Shown: positions 27,934 through 35,004 of the stretch, piece by piece | How the letters are laid out: each line of letters begins with the position of its first letter | How positions within the stretch are numbered: position 1 is the stretch's first letter | The notes under the pieces: generated by a model | The model's database searches: none | What the model was told of the DNA's origin: nothing | What the model saw: only the letters and a program-made list of their open reading frames with translations | Origin: Planktothricoides sp. SR001 | Lineage (GTDB): Bacteria; Cyanobacteriota; Cyanobacteriia; Cyanobacteriales; Laspinemataceae | DNA: 64,000 bases | Direction of reading: 5' to 3' | Assembly (NCBI RefSeq): GCF_001276715.1 | Contig: NZ_LIUQ01000011.1 | Span: 1-64,000 of the forward strand | Position numbers and translations under genes: made by a program

Positions 27934-29298
27934 ATGCACGCAAAAGTCATTCTGACCATTAGTCAAGGTCAACTCCAAGGAGAGATATTTGAGTTTGATT
28001 CTCGCGCCACTTGTATTATTGGCCGAGCCCAGGAGTGCCACCCAAGAATCCCCGATCGCAGAAGCAACCGGGCAATTTCTCGGTATCACTGCCTGCTGGA
28101 CATCAACCCACCCGCCATCCGAATCAGAGATTTTGGCAGCAAAAACGGCACCTTCGTCAACGGGGCAAAAATTGGCCAACGGCAACCCCATCAAACTGCT
28201 CAACAAGGAGCAAAGCTCAACTTCCCCGAATACGACTTAACCGACGGGGATAAAATCAAAATAGGCAACACAGTTTTCCGAGTCAGCGTAGAAGCCGATG
28301 GCGGCCCATCTGCTCCTCTTCCCGATGGCGGCCTATCTCCTCTCTTGTCTGGGGGAAATTTCCCCGCACCAGAACACAACCGCTCCTGTGCCCCTCTTCG
28401 AGCAATAAATCTCAGAGATACTGTGGAGCAACTACTCAGCCAAACCGGGAGCGATCGCCCTTCGTGCTGCCAAGGTTACGCAATTCAAACAACTTTGGGC
28501 AAAGCAAGCAGTAACAAATATGGGGAAGTACACTTAATTCGTCGCACCAACACCGGAGAAAAATCAGCGCTGAAAATCATGGTGCCACAAGTGGCAGTCA
28601 AGGAATCAGCCCAAAACTGGTTTTTGGCAGAAATGGAAAAAAGCAAATTATTGAGGCATCCCAACCTCGTCCGACTGAAAAACTTCTGTTTTGCCAACGG
28701 GCTATTTTTCCTAGTTGAAGAGTTCTGTAACGGCGGCAATGTTGAGGAACTGATGGCTCAACGAGGCGGTAAATTACCCCCGAACGAAGCGGTGGCCATT
28801 GTTTTACAGGTTTTGGAGGGATTGAGCTATGGGCATAGTGCTGGTTTAGTCCACGGGAATTTAAAACCAAGTGAGTTTTTCTTGACTGATATAGGAGGTA
28901 TATGTTTTGCCAAACTGGGAGTTTTTGGATTAGATCGGTCTTTTGACTTGGCTGGGTTTAGCGGCCAAAGTCTTACGGGAACTAAAGGGTCAATGCCATT
29001 TTTTATGCCTCGGCAGCAAGTTCTCAATTTTAAGTATGCTGAACGATCAGTGGATGTTTGGGCCGCCGCCGCTTGTCTTTATTACATGATTACAGGCACT
29101 TATCCTAGGGATTTTACTCATAATAGAGATCCATTTTTGACCGTATTAACTACGGAGGCAGTGGCGATCGCCAAACGTTGCCCCGATATCCCCAGACCTC
29201 TGGCAAAAGTTATTGACTGGGCATTGGTAGATAACCCAGAAATTCAGCTTAAGTCTGCGGTTGATTTGAAAAACGCTTTGCTAAAAGCTCATCGTTAG
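27934..29298 (+). CDS. FHA domain - pseudokinase protein
   Basis: The 454-residue protein starts with an FHA phosphothreonine-binding domain (about 1-115; CIIGRAQECHP, SRYHCLLD and DFGSKNGTFVNG give the conserved Gly-Arg, Ser, His and Asn-Gly). A variable linker partly made of GATGGCGG repeat DNA leads to a kinase-like fold (about 180-450). The ATP-site lysine appears present (SALKIM). But the catalytic loop reads VHGNLKPSEF (His307-Gly-Asn, no Asp), the metal-binding DFG reads VFG, and the APE region reads FFMPRQQV. By these substitutions it should not be a normal kinase. The C-terminal lobe (DVWAAAACLYYMITGTYPRDF) is a close paralogue of the end of the next gene, which starts 108 bp downstream on the same strand. 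Phosphopeptide-dependent scaffolding is inferred. Confidence 0.85.
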   Translation: MHAKVILTISQGQLQGEIFEFDSRATCIIGRAQECHPRIPDRRSNRAISRYHCLLDINPPAIRIRDFGSKNGTFVNGAKIGQRQPHQTAQQGAKLNFPEYDLTDGDKIKIGNTVFRVSVEADGGPSAPLPDGGLSPLLSGGNFPAPEHNRSCAPLRAINLRDTVEQLLSQTGSDRPSCCQGYAIQTTLGKASSNKYGEVHLIRRTNTGEKSALKIMVPQVAVKESAQNWFLAEMEKSKLLRHPNLVRLKNFCFANGLFFLVEEFCNGGNVEELMAQRGGKLPPNEAVAIVLQVLEGLSYGHSAGLVHGNLKPSEFFLTDIGGICFAKLGVFGLDRSFDLAGFSGQSLTGTKGSMPFFMPRQQVLNFKYAERSVDVWAAAACLYYMITGTYPRDFTHNRDPFLTVLTTEAVAIAKRCPDIPRPLAKVIDWALVDNPEIQLKSAVDLKNALLKAHR

Positions 29299-29406
29299 TC
29301 TGGTGGCTGGTTGATTGGCTGGTTGATTGGTAGGTTGATTGTTTGTAAAAAGTTGTAGTGGGTTGGTAATGCTTACGTCCGCTATAGTGATAGGTCTGAT
29401 AGGTCT

Positions 29407-32400
29407 ATGGAAATACAGTTTTCTAATTCTTGGCAAGTAGGCGATGTTCTCCTGGGACTATATGAAGTTCTGGCAGTGCAGACCCAATCTTCTGAGTCTC
29501 CTGAGTCTCCTGAGTCTCCTGGTATGGGAACGCGTTATCACGTGAGGCACCTGGGCTGGGATGTCCAACTGATAATGAGCGTTCCTAAACCGAAAGTCTT
29601 CCTTGGCGATCGCTCCATCGCCGACCGGGTTAAAGCTTGGGCAGATTTGGCATGGCATCCGCTATTAGTCAATTGCTTCTATGGGCGCTCCTTGCCCCCA
29701 AAAAATCTTGAACTCGCCGGTGAAAGCCGTTTCGCCATCTTCACCGAGTTTGTCACTGGCAATACCCTAGATGATGAAATTCGGTCTGGTAGGTTGTACC
29801 AAGGAACCAGTAACGCGGTTTTGGCCAGAATTTTAGACATAGCAATAAAATCCGCTTGGGCGCTGGCTTATATCCACCGGAGTGGCGTAATTCATCAAGG
29901 GGTTCGTCCAGCAAATCTCCTCCTGTGCCCTGATGGTTTGGTTAAACTAAATGACTTTGTTACTTTCTGGGGACTCGGTGCCTCTGCCCAAAGCGATCCA
30001 TCCAATAATTTCTGTTTCGATCCCTATTTTTCCCCAGAACAAGTCAAGTCTTTGTCTTTAACCCCAACTGTGGATTGTTGGAGTTGGGGGCTGTTGGTTC
30101 TGGAAATGTTCCAAGGAAAACGCACCTGGTCTGCGGGATCCGCCGCTGCCCAAGCTTTGAAGTCTTATCAGGAGTCTGGGGAATTTTCCCCATTTTCCCC
30201 AGGTTCGTCTGGTAGGAACACCGACCAAATGCCCAGTTCGCAAACGCCCGGTGAGATGCCCAGTCCGCAAATGCCCAGTGAACTATGCTGGTTGTTGCGC
30301 CGCTGTTTCCGCAAGAACCCCACCGATCGCCCCACCTCTGAGGAAATTTCCTCAGAGTTAGAAAAAATCTATCTGCTCTCTACTGGGGTTGCCTATCCCT
30401 GTAAACATACCTGTACATATAATTTTGTCAGTTGGGCTAAGGAACGAAATCCCACCTACTATCTGGCATCTCTCAACAATAAAGCATTGTGTTCCCTAGA
30501 CTTGGGCTTTTTCCCTCGCGCTCTCCAACTGTGGGATAAGGCTCTGGAAATTAACCCCGCTCATTTAGAGTCGGTCTACAATCAGGGCTTGTTTCTCTGG
30601 CGCACCGCTCGAATTGATGACGTGACTTTGATAAGTAAGCTGGAAGCTCTCCGGGATTTCTATGATAGTCAACAGGTAGATGATTTGTTGAATCTGGTTA
30701 ATTTAGAACGCGGCGTAGGGGCAGGCGTAGGAGCGACTACTTCAGGTGAACCTCTACCGCAGCCTTTTTCCTCCCCATCCTCCCCATCCCCCCCATCCTC
30801 CCCACCCTCCCCATCCCCCCCATCTTCCTCGCGGGGCTACGGGGGCGAAGGGCTGATGGGACTAATTCGCCAGATTCCTAACCACACCAATTTGATTTCG
30901 TCCGTCTGTTTTACCGGCGATGGTCGCTTCTTTCTGTCCACTAGCGATCGCCACACTTTTAAGCTTTGGTCCGTAGCCACCGGCGAATGTCTGCACACTT
31001 TCGTCGGTCACACCCAGGAAGTTAAATGCGTCTGCGTTAGCGCTGATGGCAAGTATGCTCTCTCTGCCAGTTGGGATCGCACCATGAGACTTTGGGATGT
31101 TATTTCCGGCAACTCACTGAGGATTTTTCCTCACAACCCGCACTTTGGCGAACAGGAAGGCCAACAGGAAGGCCAACAGGAAGGCCAACAGGAAGGCCAA
31201 CAGGAAGGCCAACAGGAAGGCCAACAGGAAATCTTTACCATAGCTCTCAGTGCCAACGGGGTTTTCGCCCTCTCCAGTAGTGGCGATCGCTTTAGTTTAT
31301 GGCATATGTCAACCGGCGAATGTCTGCGTAGTTTTGTTGGTCACAAAGGAGATGTCCTTGCTTTAGCCTTAAATAGCAATGCCCCCTCCCATGCCCCCTC
31401 TTATGCCCTCTCTGGCAGTCTGGATAAAACCATTAAACTCTGGGAGGTTGATACGGGAATTTGTCGGCAAACTCTCCACGGTCATCAGCGAGAAGTCACC
31501 TCCGTATGCTTCAGCAATAATGGTGACTATGCTCTGTCCGGCAGCCGCGATCGCACCCTAAAACTCTGGCAACTTTCTACCGGGGATTGCCTACAAACCA
31601 TGTTCGGTCACGGGGATGAAGTTACTTCGGTCTGCCTAACCCCTGATGGCAACTACGCTTTGTCCGCCAGTTCCGACCATACCTTGAAACTCTGGCATCT
31701 GGAAAACGGACGTTGTTTACGCACCTTTGAAGGTGACAATGGCGCTATTACTTCCCTGTGCTTGAGTCCTGACGGGCAAATAGCCCTCTCAGGCAGCATG
31801 GATCATACCCTGAAACTCTGGTATATTCGCCCCCCCCAAACTCCCGCGATCGCGACAAAGCTCCTCTGCACCCCACACCGGGGTAGAGGGGATGAGGGGA
31901 TAAGAGGCAGAGGGGATGAGGGGCTTTTGCTCGATGGCGGCTCCCCGGCTCGATTGGCGGCTCCTCCGCTCGATGGCGGCTCCCCCGCTCCCCCACACAA
32001 GAGCACAAGAGCACAAGAGCACAAGAACACAAGAACACAAGAGCACAAGAGCATCCCTAGACAGTCTAAAAAATACAGGATTTTCCACTTGCCGAAAAAA
32101 TCATTTGTTGCCGCTGCTGAAGAAATTACCCTGGCAGAACACAGTAGTACTATTGGCCCCGCTGTTCTGAGTGCTGACGGTCGCATCGCCCTTTTTGCTG
32201 GAAGTTTAGATAAGTCTTTTGTGGGAATGTTCAGCGTTGATGAGCGTTGCTGTAGCGGCGAATCTACCGACGAAGCACCGAGTAGGGCGGTCGGAGGCGA
32301 TCGGGAATTCGTCGGTCACAAAGACCAAGTGCGAAGCTTAAGCTTAAGTTCAGATAACTCCACCGCCCTCTCTGGTAGTGCGGATAAAACCGTGAAACTC

Positions 32401-35004
32401 TGGGAAGTGGCCACGGGCAAATGTCTTTGTACCCTAACCGGCCACCAGGATGCAGTTAATTCCGTAAGCTTTAGTGCCGATGGACTCTATGTTATCTCTG
32501 GAAGTAGCGATCGCACTATCAAACTTTGGGATATCGCCACGGGCAAATGTCTCTATACCCTCAAAGGTCACTACGGAGCAGTTAACTGCATATATCCCAG
32601 TCCTGACGGTCGCTACCTCCTCTCTGGCAGCGCCGATACAACCCTCAAGGTTTGGGATTTACGTCAGCAAAAATGTCTGCGGACTTTTAAAGGTCATCAA
32701 GGCAGCATTACTTCCCTGCAAATCAGCGCCGACGGTGCGATCGCTCTCACCGGCAGCACCGATAAAACCCTCAGACTGTGGCACCTCCATCAGTCAAAGT
32801 GCCTGCAAACCCTCATAGGACACACCGCTGAAGTAACTTCTGTTTGCCTAACCCAAGAAGGTCGCTACGCCCTCTCTGCCAGTCAAGACCAAACCGTAAA
32901 AGTTTGGCAAGTAGCTAATCGTCAATGTCTGCATACCTTTATGAGAATACCCAGTTCTGGGGGCGACGTTTCCCTAAGTGTTTCCCCCCTAAGTGTTTCT
33001 TTAAGTGCAGACGGCCGTTATGCTCTCTGTAGCAGCGCTATGACCCTAAAACTTTGGTCGCTGGACTGGGAACTAGAAAACCGCGACCCAGCACCTTGGG
33101 ATGAAGCCGCCCGCCCCTACCTAGAAGTGTTTCTAACTTTACACACCCCAGGAACCCATATCCCAGGAACCCATATCCCAGGAACCGAGGTAGGGGAAAA
33201 TAGTGAGGAAAATTCCTCAGAGGAAATACCCACCTGGACAGAGGCAGATTTTCAACAACTACTCCGCATTCTCTCGTGGAGTGGTTACGGTTGGTTAGAA
33301 CCAGAAGGGTTGAAAACTCAATTAGAAGCAATGGCCGCTAATTGGCAGTGGTTATCTCCCTTTATCGCTGAAATTTCCTACTCGGAGTTAGAATATGAAG
33401 GAACTCAGCTAACTTATTACGCCCCAGAAAGTGTGTCAAAAGAGGAGCCCGCCATCGGCAGAGGAGCAGAGGAACCCGCCGTCGGCAGAGGGACCCGCGG
33501 TCGGATGATCGGCCCGCCGTCGGATGAGGGGCTTTTGCTCCCCGGATCCCCGGATCCCCGGATCCCCGGCACCCCCGCTTCCCCGCACCCCACCTACCCT
33601 GACGCGATTACTTTAGTAATCGAATCAGGTCCATTGAAAGGACAAAAGTTTCATTTTAATAGTCGCACTACTTGCGTAATTGGTCGGGGTCAAGGCTGTA
33701 TTCCGCTTCTTCCCAACGACTCCAGTCATCAAACAGTCTCTCGCTATCACTGTTTGTTAGATGTTAACCCACCTTTTTCTATTAGAATTCGCGATTTAAA
33801 TAGCAAAAATGGCACTTTTGTGAATGGCCAAATTCTGGGTAAAGATATCAAAGATACTGTCGCAGGAAATATCAAGTATGAAATGAAACTGAATGATGGC
33901 GATCGCTTTAAACTTGGTTACACATCTTTCGCAGTTTTGATTAATAGTAAACCGTCAAAAGAGAATATTGATCAAAATTTTTTGAATTTAAATTCATCAA
34001 TAAAAGGCAATTTATTCTTTAATTTGCCCAACGATTCGGCCAATAATTCATCGGGATTACCAATATTACCGACAATTGAAGGCTATACTATTTTGGATGT
34101 TTTGGGTCGGGGACGCACCAGTCAAGTACACTCAATTCGTCACAATGAAACCGGGCAAATTATGGCTTTGAAAGTGCTGCAACCTCAGTCCGGGAAGCAG
34201 TCCGGGAATCAATGGGAAAAAATCGCCTCCTTCCTGCGGGACTTAGAAAACCTGAAAAAGTTGCGTCACCCCAACATAATCCAACTCATTGACTACGGCT
34301 ATTGGGGCGGACAGTTTTTCCTAATCCTTGAACATTGCCCTGGGGAAAATGTAATTAAACTGATGCAGCAACAAGGAAAATGTTTATCAGTAGAAAAATC
34401 CCTAGAAATTATTTTTCAAGTGCTGGACGGTCTGGATTATGCTCATCATCTGGATGTGCCATTTGGAAAACAAGCGAACGTTTTGAGTGATGGTAAGGGT
34501 TTGTTTCATGGAACTTTGAAACCAGCAAACATCTTTTTATCTGGTGTATTATCTGGTGTATTATCTGGTGTATTATCTGGTGTAAAGCCTAATACGCCCC
34601 AAGAAGTAAAAATCCGAGTTAAGCTGAGTGATTATGCTTTAGATAAGGCGTTTGATTTGGCAGGTTTGGGGGGTTTAACTATGACGGGAATTAAACCTCG
34701 TCAACCGATTTTTATTTGCCGTCAACAAGCTATTGATTTTAGATGCGTACAGGCTGAGTTGGATGTGTGGACAGCAGCAGCTTGCTTATATTTTATGCTG
34801 ACTGGTCGTTTTGTTCGCAATTTTGTTGGCGAAAATCCTTGGTTGACGGTGCTACAAACAGAACCAGTGCCAATTGGCGATCGCCACCCAGGTATCCCCA
34901 AGGCTTTGGCAGAGTTGGTGGATTTGGCTTTAGGCGATCGAGGGCATATTTATTTTAAAAAGGCGGCGGCATTTAAACAGGCTTTAGAATCAGTATATCC
35001 GTAG
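29407..35004 (+). CDS. Giant two-pseudokinase protein with TPR, 14 WD40 repeats and FHA domain
   Basis: The 1865-residue order is as follows. Kinase-like domain 1 (about 1-330) has catalytic loop IHQGVRPANLLL with His163-Gln-Gly lacking Asp, no VAIK lysine, but DFV and YFSPEQV retained. A TPR-like stretch (about 350-430) follows. WD40 repeats 1-7 lie at about 485-808, a low-complexity linker at about 809-895, and WD40 repeats 8-14 at about 896-1222. Next are a linker, an FHA domain (about 1398-1515; CVIGRGQG, SRYHCLLD, NSKNGTFVNG), and kinase-like domain 2 (about 1558-1865), which has the lysine (MALKVL) but FHGTLKPANIF (His1701-Gly-Thr), DYA for DFG and CRQQ for the APE. The FHA plus kinase-2 half duplicates the preceding gene. 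Two seven-blade propellers are likely. The stop TAG is supplied by a dispersed GTAGGGGCG repeat. Confidence 0.9.
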   Translation: MEIQFSNSWQVGDVLLGLYEVLAVQTQSSESPESPESPGMGTRYHVRHLGWDVQLIMSVPKPKVFLGDRSIADRVKAWADLAWHPLLVNCFYGRSLPPKNLELAGESRFAIFTEFVTGNTLDDEIRSGRLYQGTSNAVLARILDIAIKSAWALAYIHRSGVIHQGVRPANLLLCPDGLVKLNDFVTFWGLGASAQSDPSNNFCFDPYFSPEQVKSLSLTPTVDCWSWGLLVLEMFQGKRTWSAGSAAAQALKSYQESGEFSPFSPGSSGRNTDQMPSSQTPGEMPSPQMPSELCWLLRRCFRKNPTDRPTSEEISSELEKIYLLSTGVAYPCKHTCTYNFVSWAKERNPTYYLASLNNKALCSLDLGFFPRALQLWDKALEINPAHLESVYNQGLFLWRTARIDDVTLISKLEALRDFYDSQQVDDLLNLVNLERGVGAGVGATTSGEPLPQPFSSPSSPSPPSSPPSPSPPSSSRGYGGEGLMGLIRQIPNHTNLISSVCFTGDGRFFLSTSDRHTFKLWSVATGECLHTFVGHTQEVKCVCVSADGKYALSASWDRTMRLWDVISGNSLRIFPHNPHFGEQEGQQEGQQEGQQEGQQEGQQEGQQEIFTIALSANGVFALSSSGDRFSLWHMSTGECLRSFVGHKGDVLALALNSNAPSHAPSYALSGSLDKTIKLWEVDTGICRQTLHGHQREVTSVCFSNNGDYALSGSRDRTLKLWQLSTGDCLQTMFGHGDEVTSVCLTPDGNYALSASSDHTLKLWHLENGRCLRTFEGDNGAITSLCLSPDGQIALSGSMDHTLKLWYIRPPQTPAIATKLLCTPHRGRGDEGIRGRGDEGLLLDGGSPARLAAPPLDGGSPAPPHKSTRAQEHKNTRTQEHKSIPRQSKKYRIFHLPKKSFVAAAEEITLAEHSSTIGPAVLSADGRIALFAGSLDKSFVGMFSVDERCCSGESTDEAPSRAVGGDREFVGHKDQVRSLSLSSDNSTALSGSADKTVKLWEVATGKCLCTLTGHQDAVNSVSFSADGLYVISGSSDRTIKLWDIATGKCLYTLKGHYGAVNCIYPSPDGRYLLSGSADTTLKVWDLRQQKCLRTFKGHQGSITSLQISADGAIALTGSTDKTLRLWHLHQSKCLQTLIGHTAEVTSVCLTQEGRYALSASQDQTVKVWQVANRQCLHTFMRIPSSGGDVSLSVSPLSVSLSADGRYALCSSAMTLKLWSLDWELENRDPAPWDEAARPYLEVFLTLHTPGTHIPGTHIPGTEVGENSEENSSEEIPTWTEADFQQLLRILSWSGYGWLEPEGLKTQLEAMAANWQWLSPFIAEISYSELEYEGTQLTYYAPESVSKEEPAIGRGAEEPAVGRGTRGRMIGPPSDEGLLLPGSPDPRIPGTPASPHPTYPDAITLVIESGPLKGQKFHFNSRTTCVIGRGQGCIPLLPNDSSHQTVSRYHCLLDVNPPFSIRIRDLNSKNGTFVNGQILGKDIKDTVAGNIKYEMKLNDGDRFKLGYTSFAVLINSKPSKENIDQNFLNLNSSIKGNLFFNLPNDSANNSSGLPILPTIEGYTILDVLGRGRTSQVHSIRHNETGQIMALKVLQPQSGKQSGNQWEKIASFLRDLENLKKLRHPNIIQLIDYGYWGGQFFLILEHCPGENVIKLMQQQGKCLSVEKSLEIIFQVLDGLDYAHHLDVPFGKQANVLSDGKGLFHGTLKPANIFLSGVLSGVLSGVLSGVKPNTPQEVKIRVKLSDYALDKAFDLAGLGGLTMTGIKPRQPIFICRQQAIDFRCVQAELDVWTAAACLYFMLTGRFVRNFVGENPWLTVLQTEPVPIGDRHPGIPKALAELVDLALGDRGHIYFKKAAAFKQALESVYP
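31148..31230 (+). repeat. 12-bp tandem repeat in a WD40 blade
   Basis: About seven copies of GAAGGCCAACAG encode (EGQQ)n inside the third WD40 repeat. The frame is kept because the unit is a multiple of three. Confidence 0.9.
31860..32062 (+). repeat. Spacer-type repeats inside coding linker
   Basis: It contains GATGAGGGGCTTTTGCTC at 31915 (again at 33523 in the same gene), several GATGGCGGCTC units and a run of CACAAGAG hexamer-octamer repeats. All are in frame and form the linker between the two WD40 propellers. Confidence 0.8.
33445..33600 (+). repeat. Second block of spacer-type repeats in coding linker
   Basis: GATGAGGGGCTTTTGCTC at 33523-33540 is followed by CCCCGGATC triplets. It forms the Gly/Pro/Arg-rich linker before the FHA domain. 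Confidence 0.8.
34540..34590 (+). repeat. 12-bp tandem repeat in kinase-like domain 2
   Basis: Four copies of TTATCTGGTGTA encode (LSGV)n, inserted just after the degenerate catalytic loop at LKPANIF. Confidence 0.88.

Follow-up and report, generated by a model that had tools for sequence, protein, structure and literature searches.

What can a kinase-like domain still do once the catalytic aspartate of its HRD motif is gone? The question is raised by two adjacent genes of the filamentous cyanobacterium Planktothricoides sp. SR001, situated in a 64,000-nucleotide stretch of DNA (the window), that together encode two FHA domains and three kinase-like domains. The initial annotation had interpreted the pair as a reader of a phospho-signal written by a separate kinase. 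By combining motif comparison across the protein family with gene neighbourhoods, rate estimates and structure models, we arrive at a related proposal, to which we give about even weight: the two proteins, here P1 and P2, would be phosphothreonine-reading adaptors that evolved from FHA kinases and are served by a separate active kinase.

A tandem gene pair with three kinase-like domains

P1 and P2 are encoded in tandem, with P2 starting 108 nt past the end of P1, and are composed of the following parts.

27934..29298, + strand: P1, FHA and pseudokinase protein (by motif), 454 aa (ORF, translation, Pfam)
27934..28293, + strand: FHA part of P1, aa 1-120, with the Pfam FHA match at aa 28-88 (Pfam, family columns)
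28471..29295, + strand: kinase-like domain of P1, aa 180-454, with the Pfam match at aa 195-435 (Pfam, structure model, Foldseek)
28852..28875, + strand: catalytic loop of P1, HGNLKPSE against the family's HRDLKPxN (alignment)
28921..28929, + strand: VFG of P1 against the family's DYG (alignment)
29008..29019, + strand: PRQQ of P1, the normal family form of the APE motif (alignment)
29407..35004, + strand: P2, arranged as kinase-like, TPR-like, WD40, FHA and kinase-like, 1865 aa (ORF, Pfam, genome search)
29428..30381, + strand: P2-N, the N-terminal kinase-like domain of P2, aa 8-325, with LIMS, HQGVRPAN, DF plus an insert, and SPEQ
30856..33057, + strand: WD40 region of P2 in two blocks, aa 484-806 and aa 965-1217 (block limits by eye)
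33601..33936, + strand: FHA part of P2, aa 1399-1510, with the profile match at 33676-33918 (genome search)
34069..35001, + strand: P2-C, the C-terminal kinase-like domain of P2, aa 1555-1865, with Lys kept, DYA and CRQQ
34507..34530, + strand: catalytic loop of P2-C, HGTLKPAN (alignment)

The Pfam matches of P1 include FHA and Pkinase, and those of P2, taken from the best 25 of 58 families, include WD40 and two Pkinase stretches; Pkinase lies above its cut-off of 31.7 in both proteins (97.4 bits in P1, 149.6 bits across the two stretches of P2). The FHA domain of P2 was found by a profile search of the genome (52.4 bits, cut-off 20.7), and the TPR-like stretch behind P2-N was read from the sequence by eye, without a profile match seen. 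P1 aligns with the C-terminal part of P2 across both the FHA and the kinase parts at 40% identity, which bears out the homology between them that had been proposed. NCBIfam and PADLOC returned generic kinases; since the NCBIfam scores are far under the curated cut-offs and PADLOC comes without a printed cut-off, we do not call P1 and P2 a defence system.

Structure models of P1 and P2-C, single chains of moderate confidence (mean pLDDT 72 and 73, pTM 0.71 and 0.76, respectively), confirm a predicted PknB/Stk1-like kinase fold, with PknB/Stk1 among the best PDB fold matches of both in Foldseek; the weaker stretches are aa 28-52 within the FHA domain of P1, the linkers and the loops of P2-C. PknB/Stk1-type bacterial kinases, which P1 and P2-C thus resemble in fold, are active enzymes with HRD, DFG and APE motifs.

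At the HRD position the window's domains read HGN in P1 (aa 307-309), HQG in P2-N (aa 163-165) and HGT in P2-C (aa 1701-1703), and so all three lack the aspartate, as the initial annotation had recognized, along with the retention of the ATP-binding beta-3 Lys in two of them (ALK in P1 and MALK in P2-C, with LIMS in its place in P2-N). P1 keeps this Lys and has lost the Asp of both HRD and DFG as well as the loop Asn, the second metal ligand (N314E); this last loss and a 3-residue insert in the Gly loop had gone unmentioned. P2-N lacks both the Lys and the HRD Asp, retains DF and SPEQ, and carries a 4-residue insert after DF. In P2-C the Asp of HRD and the Gly of DFG are gone, and the beta-3 Lys, both loop residues (Lys and Asn) and the DFG Asp are kept. 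The earlier statement that two domains had lost DFG therefore stands for P1, whose VFG is without the Asp, but not for P2-C, in which DYA preserves the metal-binding Asp and only the Gly is gone. The loss of APE that had been counted as degeneration is rejected outright: the family as a rule has PRQQ or a near variant, with the Arg present in 67/67 and the last Gln in 65/67 domains, and as they occur in intact kinases too, we regard the motif as a family mark. At position 438, taken as the usual partner Arg of APE, 36/42 intact rows have Tyr or His, possibly a change that compensates for PRQQ.

None of the three domains has the HRD Asp of an active Ser/Thr kinase. PMC12599244, in the part consulted, defines a pseudokinase by the loss of one or more of three residues (the beta-3 Lys and the Asp of HRD and of DFG), and as each domain has lost at least one of these, all three are pseudokinases as judged by motif. 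The Asp of the family's DYG/DFG motif, missing from P1 and present in P2-C, separates the two further: P1, having lost the Asp of both motifs and the Asn of the loop, probably does not bind ATP-Mg, and P2-C could still bind ATP and may act as a nucleotide-sensitive switch.

Both FHA domains retain Gly-Arg, SRYH and FVNG, and thereby the Gly-Arg, Ser, His and Asn-Gly set already pointed out for them; Gly30, Arg31, Ser49 and His52 are identical in 70/70 family rows with a residue at these positions. Measured against 42 intact stand-alone kinases of the family, the near-invariant FHA columns are changed at 0/34 positions in P1, 5/34 in P2 and 3/34 in the orthologue of P2. By their residues, both FHA domains look functional and would be expected to bind phosphothreonine.

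An FHA kinase family and its fusions

A search with P1 across named genomes gave 15 loci, among them loci of Oscillatoria sp. PCC 10802, O. princeps, Nostoc, Anabaenopsis, Anabaena, Dolichospermum, Sphaerospermopsis, Trichormus and Pegethrix, and when an alignment of 22 relatives served as query, the family turned up (E <= 1e-45) in 29/388 genomes of the class and 35/194 relatives, two sets that overlap. Of the 85 distinct ORFs read (91 before identical ones were removed), the tree holds 67 domains, those shorter than 290 aa or without readable HRD and DFG columns being left out; 53 are stand-alone and 14 belong to long proteins with WD40-like repeats. Among the stand-alone rows, the ORFs of L052, L082, L100 and L120 cover the kinase part only, and L048 is truncated by the start of its contig. 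Outside the set stand two short matches (G434, G511) and a further fragment (G500:C309), and the motif table omits L054, a duplicate of the L039 record.

On these alignments, P1 and the C-terminal part of P2 are members of one cyanobacterial FHA–Ser/Thr kinase family with an N-terminal FHA domain, DYG for DFG and PRQQ for APE; both combine an FHA domain with a kinase-like domain bearing a PRQQ-type motif. The beta-3 Lys is found in 67/67 domains, including all 13 that are without the HRD Asp, and the DFG Asp in 62/67. The HRD Asp itself is kept in 49/53 stand-alone proteins, which by motif are mostly intact kinases, versus 5/14 long WD40 proteins. We found no description of this family among the matches listed in the open-access PMC literature.

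Ten of the long proteins form one supported clade (98/88), and P2 of the window, its orthologue, L046 and L049 fall apart from it in a part of the tree without resolution. Elsewhere the N-terminal kinase/WD40 protein is a separate gene (HQDVKP or HKDVKP, with DF), followed directly by a separate intact family member; such split pairs encode 1460 and 447 aa at L116 and 1514 and 358 aa at L052, the second protein of L052 being without a matched FHA part. In the 12 fusions that have both kinases, the HRD Asp is lost from the N-terminal domain in 8, from the C-terminal domain in 8 and from both in 6, and the Lys is kept in the C-terminal domain of 12/12 and in the N-terminal domain of 6/12 (Fisher p 0.014). 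If losses are assumed to be irreversible, the best tree has 10 HRD Asp losses, 6 of them on fused branches that make up 9.29 of 32.4 branch-length units (29%; one-sided p 0.038), which hints at a concentration of losses on these branches. An independent-pairs test (treekit) was unable to reach significance, with about three changes of the fused state and a best tree with 16 open forks. Two strict rules were rejected: fusion does not mean death of the kinase, for the HRD Asp is kept in 5 of the 14 long proteins, and one kinase of a fusion does not always stay intact, for in 6 of 12 both have lost it. The fusion at L101 has two kinases that are intact by motif, and fusion thus does not force loss.

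These patterns lead us to posit, tentatively and as a possibility that we would not lean on, that an FHA kinase fused to its upstream partner (kinase, TPR-like and WD40) repeatedly loses only the catalytic base and keeps the residues of the ATP site, such that active pairs of kinase genes would have given rise, many times over, to a nucleotide-gated phosphothreonine scaffold; P1, standing alone, would then be a further case in which nucleotide binding too has been left behind.

Two further features of the fused genes came to light. Relatives of P2 at L079:3515-7651 and L080:2261-6394 have frames of 1378-1379 aa without a C-terminal kinase match and with a strongly degenerate N-terminal kinase. 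ORFs of one short-protein family are located at most 4 kb upstream of the fused long gene, be it complete or broken, at L063, L069, L070, L071, L074, L075, L078 and L081, on the same strand in 7/8 loci; their sequence suggests a signal or anchor segment.

Same-genus orthologues and partner kinases

Both genes recur in the same order and between the same flanking genes in a metagenome-assembled genome of the same genus, Oscillatoriales S07.Bin090. Here the orthologue of P1 has HRDLKPGN and DYG and is intact by motif, P2-C has HGN and DYA, and P2-N has HQDVCPAN with NL for DF and Gln for the Lys, so that the Asp at the HRD position is kept and the Lys and DFG Asp are lost. The initial annotation had seen conserved degeneration in all three copies, a claim that survives for P2-C, whose HRD Asp loss is common to both genomes, and falls for P1 and for the HRD motif of P2-N. 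It had also named intact HRD and DFG motifs in a homologue at the same position as evidence against its reading, and for P1 the same-genus orthologue has precisely these. P1 is therefore not a conserved pseudokinase, a possibility that we reject, and its loss of catalytic residues is seen in one genome only. Bacterial pseudokinases have been little tested, and the two genomes of this genus set, at one position, an intact FHA kinase against an orthologue stripped of its catalytic residues; together with the repeated losses in one fused architecture, this matched pair allows one to ask directly what a kinase still does after phosphorylation ends.

The divergence between the two genomes is uneven along the locus (window positions 16227-38699 against L054). 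Synonymous divergence (dS) is about 0.2-0.6 for three genes left of P1, about 1.5-1.8 for P1 and P2, and about 0.8-1.1 for a pair of genes on the right; for a stand-alone intact paralogue elsewhere in the genome, on contig C144, it is only about 0.13. Gene order along the locus is the same in both genomes. The higher dS of P1 and P2 would make their alleles older than the genes on the left, and we infer an old allelic block, as would be left after block replacement by recombination.

That paralogue (G000:C144:10883-12244, HRDIKPPN/DYG) is an intact family member, 52-53% identical to P1. In the window's genome, Lys, HRD Asp and DFG Asp are all kept in 50/63 kinase domains read, and the HRD Asp is missing in 11/63, 8 of them outside the window, where empty columns of partial stretches are counted as missing and 60/61 kinase matches outside the window were read, one weak match being left out. 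Around the stand-alone FHA kinases of other genomes (loci L040-L119), a second ORF with HRD and DFG kinase motifs occurs within 4 kb in 28/53 loci, as counted from mechanical ORFs and a motif pattern in related loci. Such ORFs amount to 31/343 near the FHA kinase versus 0/143 at greater distance within those loci (p 1.3e-5), the long flanks coming chiefly from the 15 loci of the P1 search. In 30 clusters at 70% identity, the neighbouring kinase is present in some member of 19 and in most members of 15. The 53 ORFs in question are stand-alone, 290-850 aa long, taken without the window and with the broken long gene L081, and differ slightly from the 53 tree rows. At L052, L106 and L116 the neighbouring kinase is the N-terminal kinase/WD40 gene itself. 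Kinase and FHA kinase together look like a conserved module. At the 14 long-protein loci other than the window, a neighbouring kinase was found in 2, one being the orthologue of P1 itself, and the window's pair has no intact kinase gene directly adjoining. Taken together, the paralogue on C144, the intact domains across the genome and the relatives that sit beside intact kinases make the earlier suggestion of a separate active kinase that supplies the mark plausible.

Proposed adaptors, alternatives and known systems

The window's copies are without catalytic residues yet keep, by sequence, the kinase fold and the FHA residues. From family membership, the loss pattern, FHA conservation, the centring of the P1 changes in the active site and the linkage of relatives to intact kinases, we infer the phosphothreonine binding, the identity of the partner, any nucleotide binding and the adaptor role of P1 and P2. 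The simplest reading is that kinases of the FHA family work with a partner Hanks kinase, whose phosphothreonines the FHA domain would read; either duplication or joining to the WD40 protein of the partner would have freed the kinase domain from catalysis and turned the protein into an adaptor. In the present pair, an active Hanks-type kinase from elsewhere would autophosphorylate or mark its substrates, P1 and P2 would dock on the resulting phosphothreonines through their FHA domains, and the kinase-shaped domains, with the WD40/TPR-like platform of P2, would hold partners, P2-C possibly still sensing nucleotide.

A rather unlikely, though serious, alternative is relaxed decay, in which the pair is without use in this lineage and its kinase domains erode while the reading frames still stand. 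The intact orthologue of P1 is in keeping with this, as is the state of certain long genes related to P2, which are broken or stop short of the C-terminal kinase (L078, L079, L080, L081). So are the short tandem repeats in which P2 is rich (31147-31230, 31996-32053, 34537-34584 and others, for example 7 copies of a 12-mer), one of which, a 12-base repeat in four perfect copies at 34537-34584, is in the kinase C-lobe of P2-C immediately 3' of the catalytic loop and speaks for some relaxation. The near-invariant kinase columns, referenced to the 42 intact stand-alone kinases, bear on both sides of the question. Outside the active site, 12/68 are changed in P1, 11/68 in its intact sister from the same-genus genome, 14/68 in P2-C and 10/68 in the P2-C orthologue, against 0-10/68 in the 42 intact rows; P1 and its sister both exceed all of these, which implies that the whole lineage evolves fast, and the non-catalytic fold of P1 is about as well kept as the sister's. 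Within the catalytic columns, by comparison, 5/10 are changed in P1, 0/10 in the sister and 4/10 in both P2-C and its orthologue, and the catalytic excess of P1 over its other columns (Fisher p 0.035) indicates that, in these alignments, what sets P1 apart from its sister sits in the active site. Also at odds with decay are frames open over 454 and 1865 codons, an FHA domain of P1 unaltered at every near-invariant column, a P2-C loss common to the sister genome, and dN/dS well under 1. The last values are rough and weak because P1 and P2 have dS values of about 1 or above, with some estimates lost to saturation: 0.07 for the FHA domain of P1, 0.13-0.17 for its kinase, averaged over a sister whose kinase is intact, 0.24-0.25 for P2-C and 0.27 for the FHA domain of P2, compared with 0.10-0.11 (kinase) and 0.22-0.23 (FHA) in the intact paralogue. 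The end branch of P1 is 0.34 versus 0.18 for the sister, and relative-rate tests between the two were not significant for either the FHA domain (9 versus 2 derived sites, p 0.07) or the kinase (24 versus 14, p 0.14).

Alternatively, P1 could be a dominant-negative copy that occupies the phosphothreonine docking sites or the kinase dimer interface of an active FHA kinase or of P2. Its kept FHA domain and lost catalytic residues fit such a decoy, as does its identity to P2-C (40%) and to the paralogue on C144 (52-53%), but any shared partner or dimer is hypothetical, the structure models show single chains at moderate confidence, and we think this quite unlikely. Still less probable, in our estimate, is that at least one of the domains transfers phosphate, or performs other ATP chemistry, without an HRD Asp. 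P2-C does retain both lysines (beta-3 and loop), the loop Asn and the DFG Asp, and SelO and SidJ, described in the part of PMC12599244 consulted, are bacterial pseudokinases with other ATP chemistry; P1, however, lacks both the HRD and the DFG Asp as well as the loop Asn, and across the family six different residues (A, N, T, S, R and C) stand in for the HRD Asp, a scatter that does not point to any newly conserved residue of catalysis.

The phosphothreonine-reading adaptor that we favour has parallels among known systems. Cyanobacterial Ser/Thr kinases with an FHA domain make up cbSTKII, in a paper that speaks of an FHA cluster (for example alr0548, alr4954 and Tery_0088; Zhang et al. 2007, PMC2176072, in part), and by description they are likewise FHA–Ser/Thr kinases of cyanobacteria. 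The same parts of that paper report five cyanobacterial kinases without the catalytic Asp, of which SpkE is without activity, and a PE motif whose Glu is 97.5% conserved over its set; the P1/P2-C family has PRQQ instead, and, unlike P2, no kinase in the table rows consulted has WD40 and FHA together. In mycobacteria, the pseudokinase MviN and the FHA reader FhaA cooperate, and the mark is made by PknB, a separate kinase that is active (PMC12599244, in part). There, however, the FHA domain is on another protein and reads the phosphorylated tail of the pseudokinase protein, whereas P1 and P2 unite FHA and pseudokinase in one chain, and MviN has VALT at beta-3 where P1 and P2-C keep the Lys.

The portions of PMC12599244 compared also list the bacterial pseudokinase families ActPs1-3, GLW, CP1, DYD and DLHK, which, like P1 and P2, are Hanks-type folds with catalytic motifs lost; none of those compared matches the P1/P2-C family. 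CP1 in these portions is, like the P1/P2-C family, a mixed active and inactive family that is partly cyanobacterial, but its pseudokinases are tied to COG3899, whereas our family is marked by FHA, PRQQ and the invariant Lys; COG3899 is not among the four Pfam matches of P1, and P2 was judged on the best 25 of 58. According to the same portions, DYD has Arg for the beta-3 Lys, which P1 and P2-C keep, and DLHK retains the HRD Asp and loses the Lys, the opposite of P1 and P2-C. Another tandem pseudokinase occurs in the window's own genome, where a 1084-aa frame (G000:C87:82990-84522; L166 and L173) has two neighbouring kinase domains without the HRD Asp (HRN and HSN).
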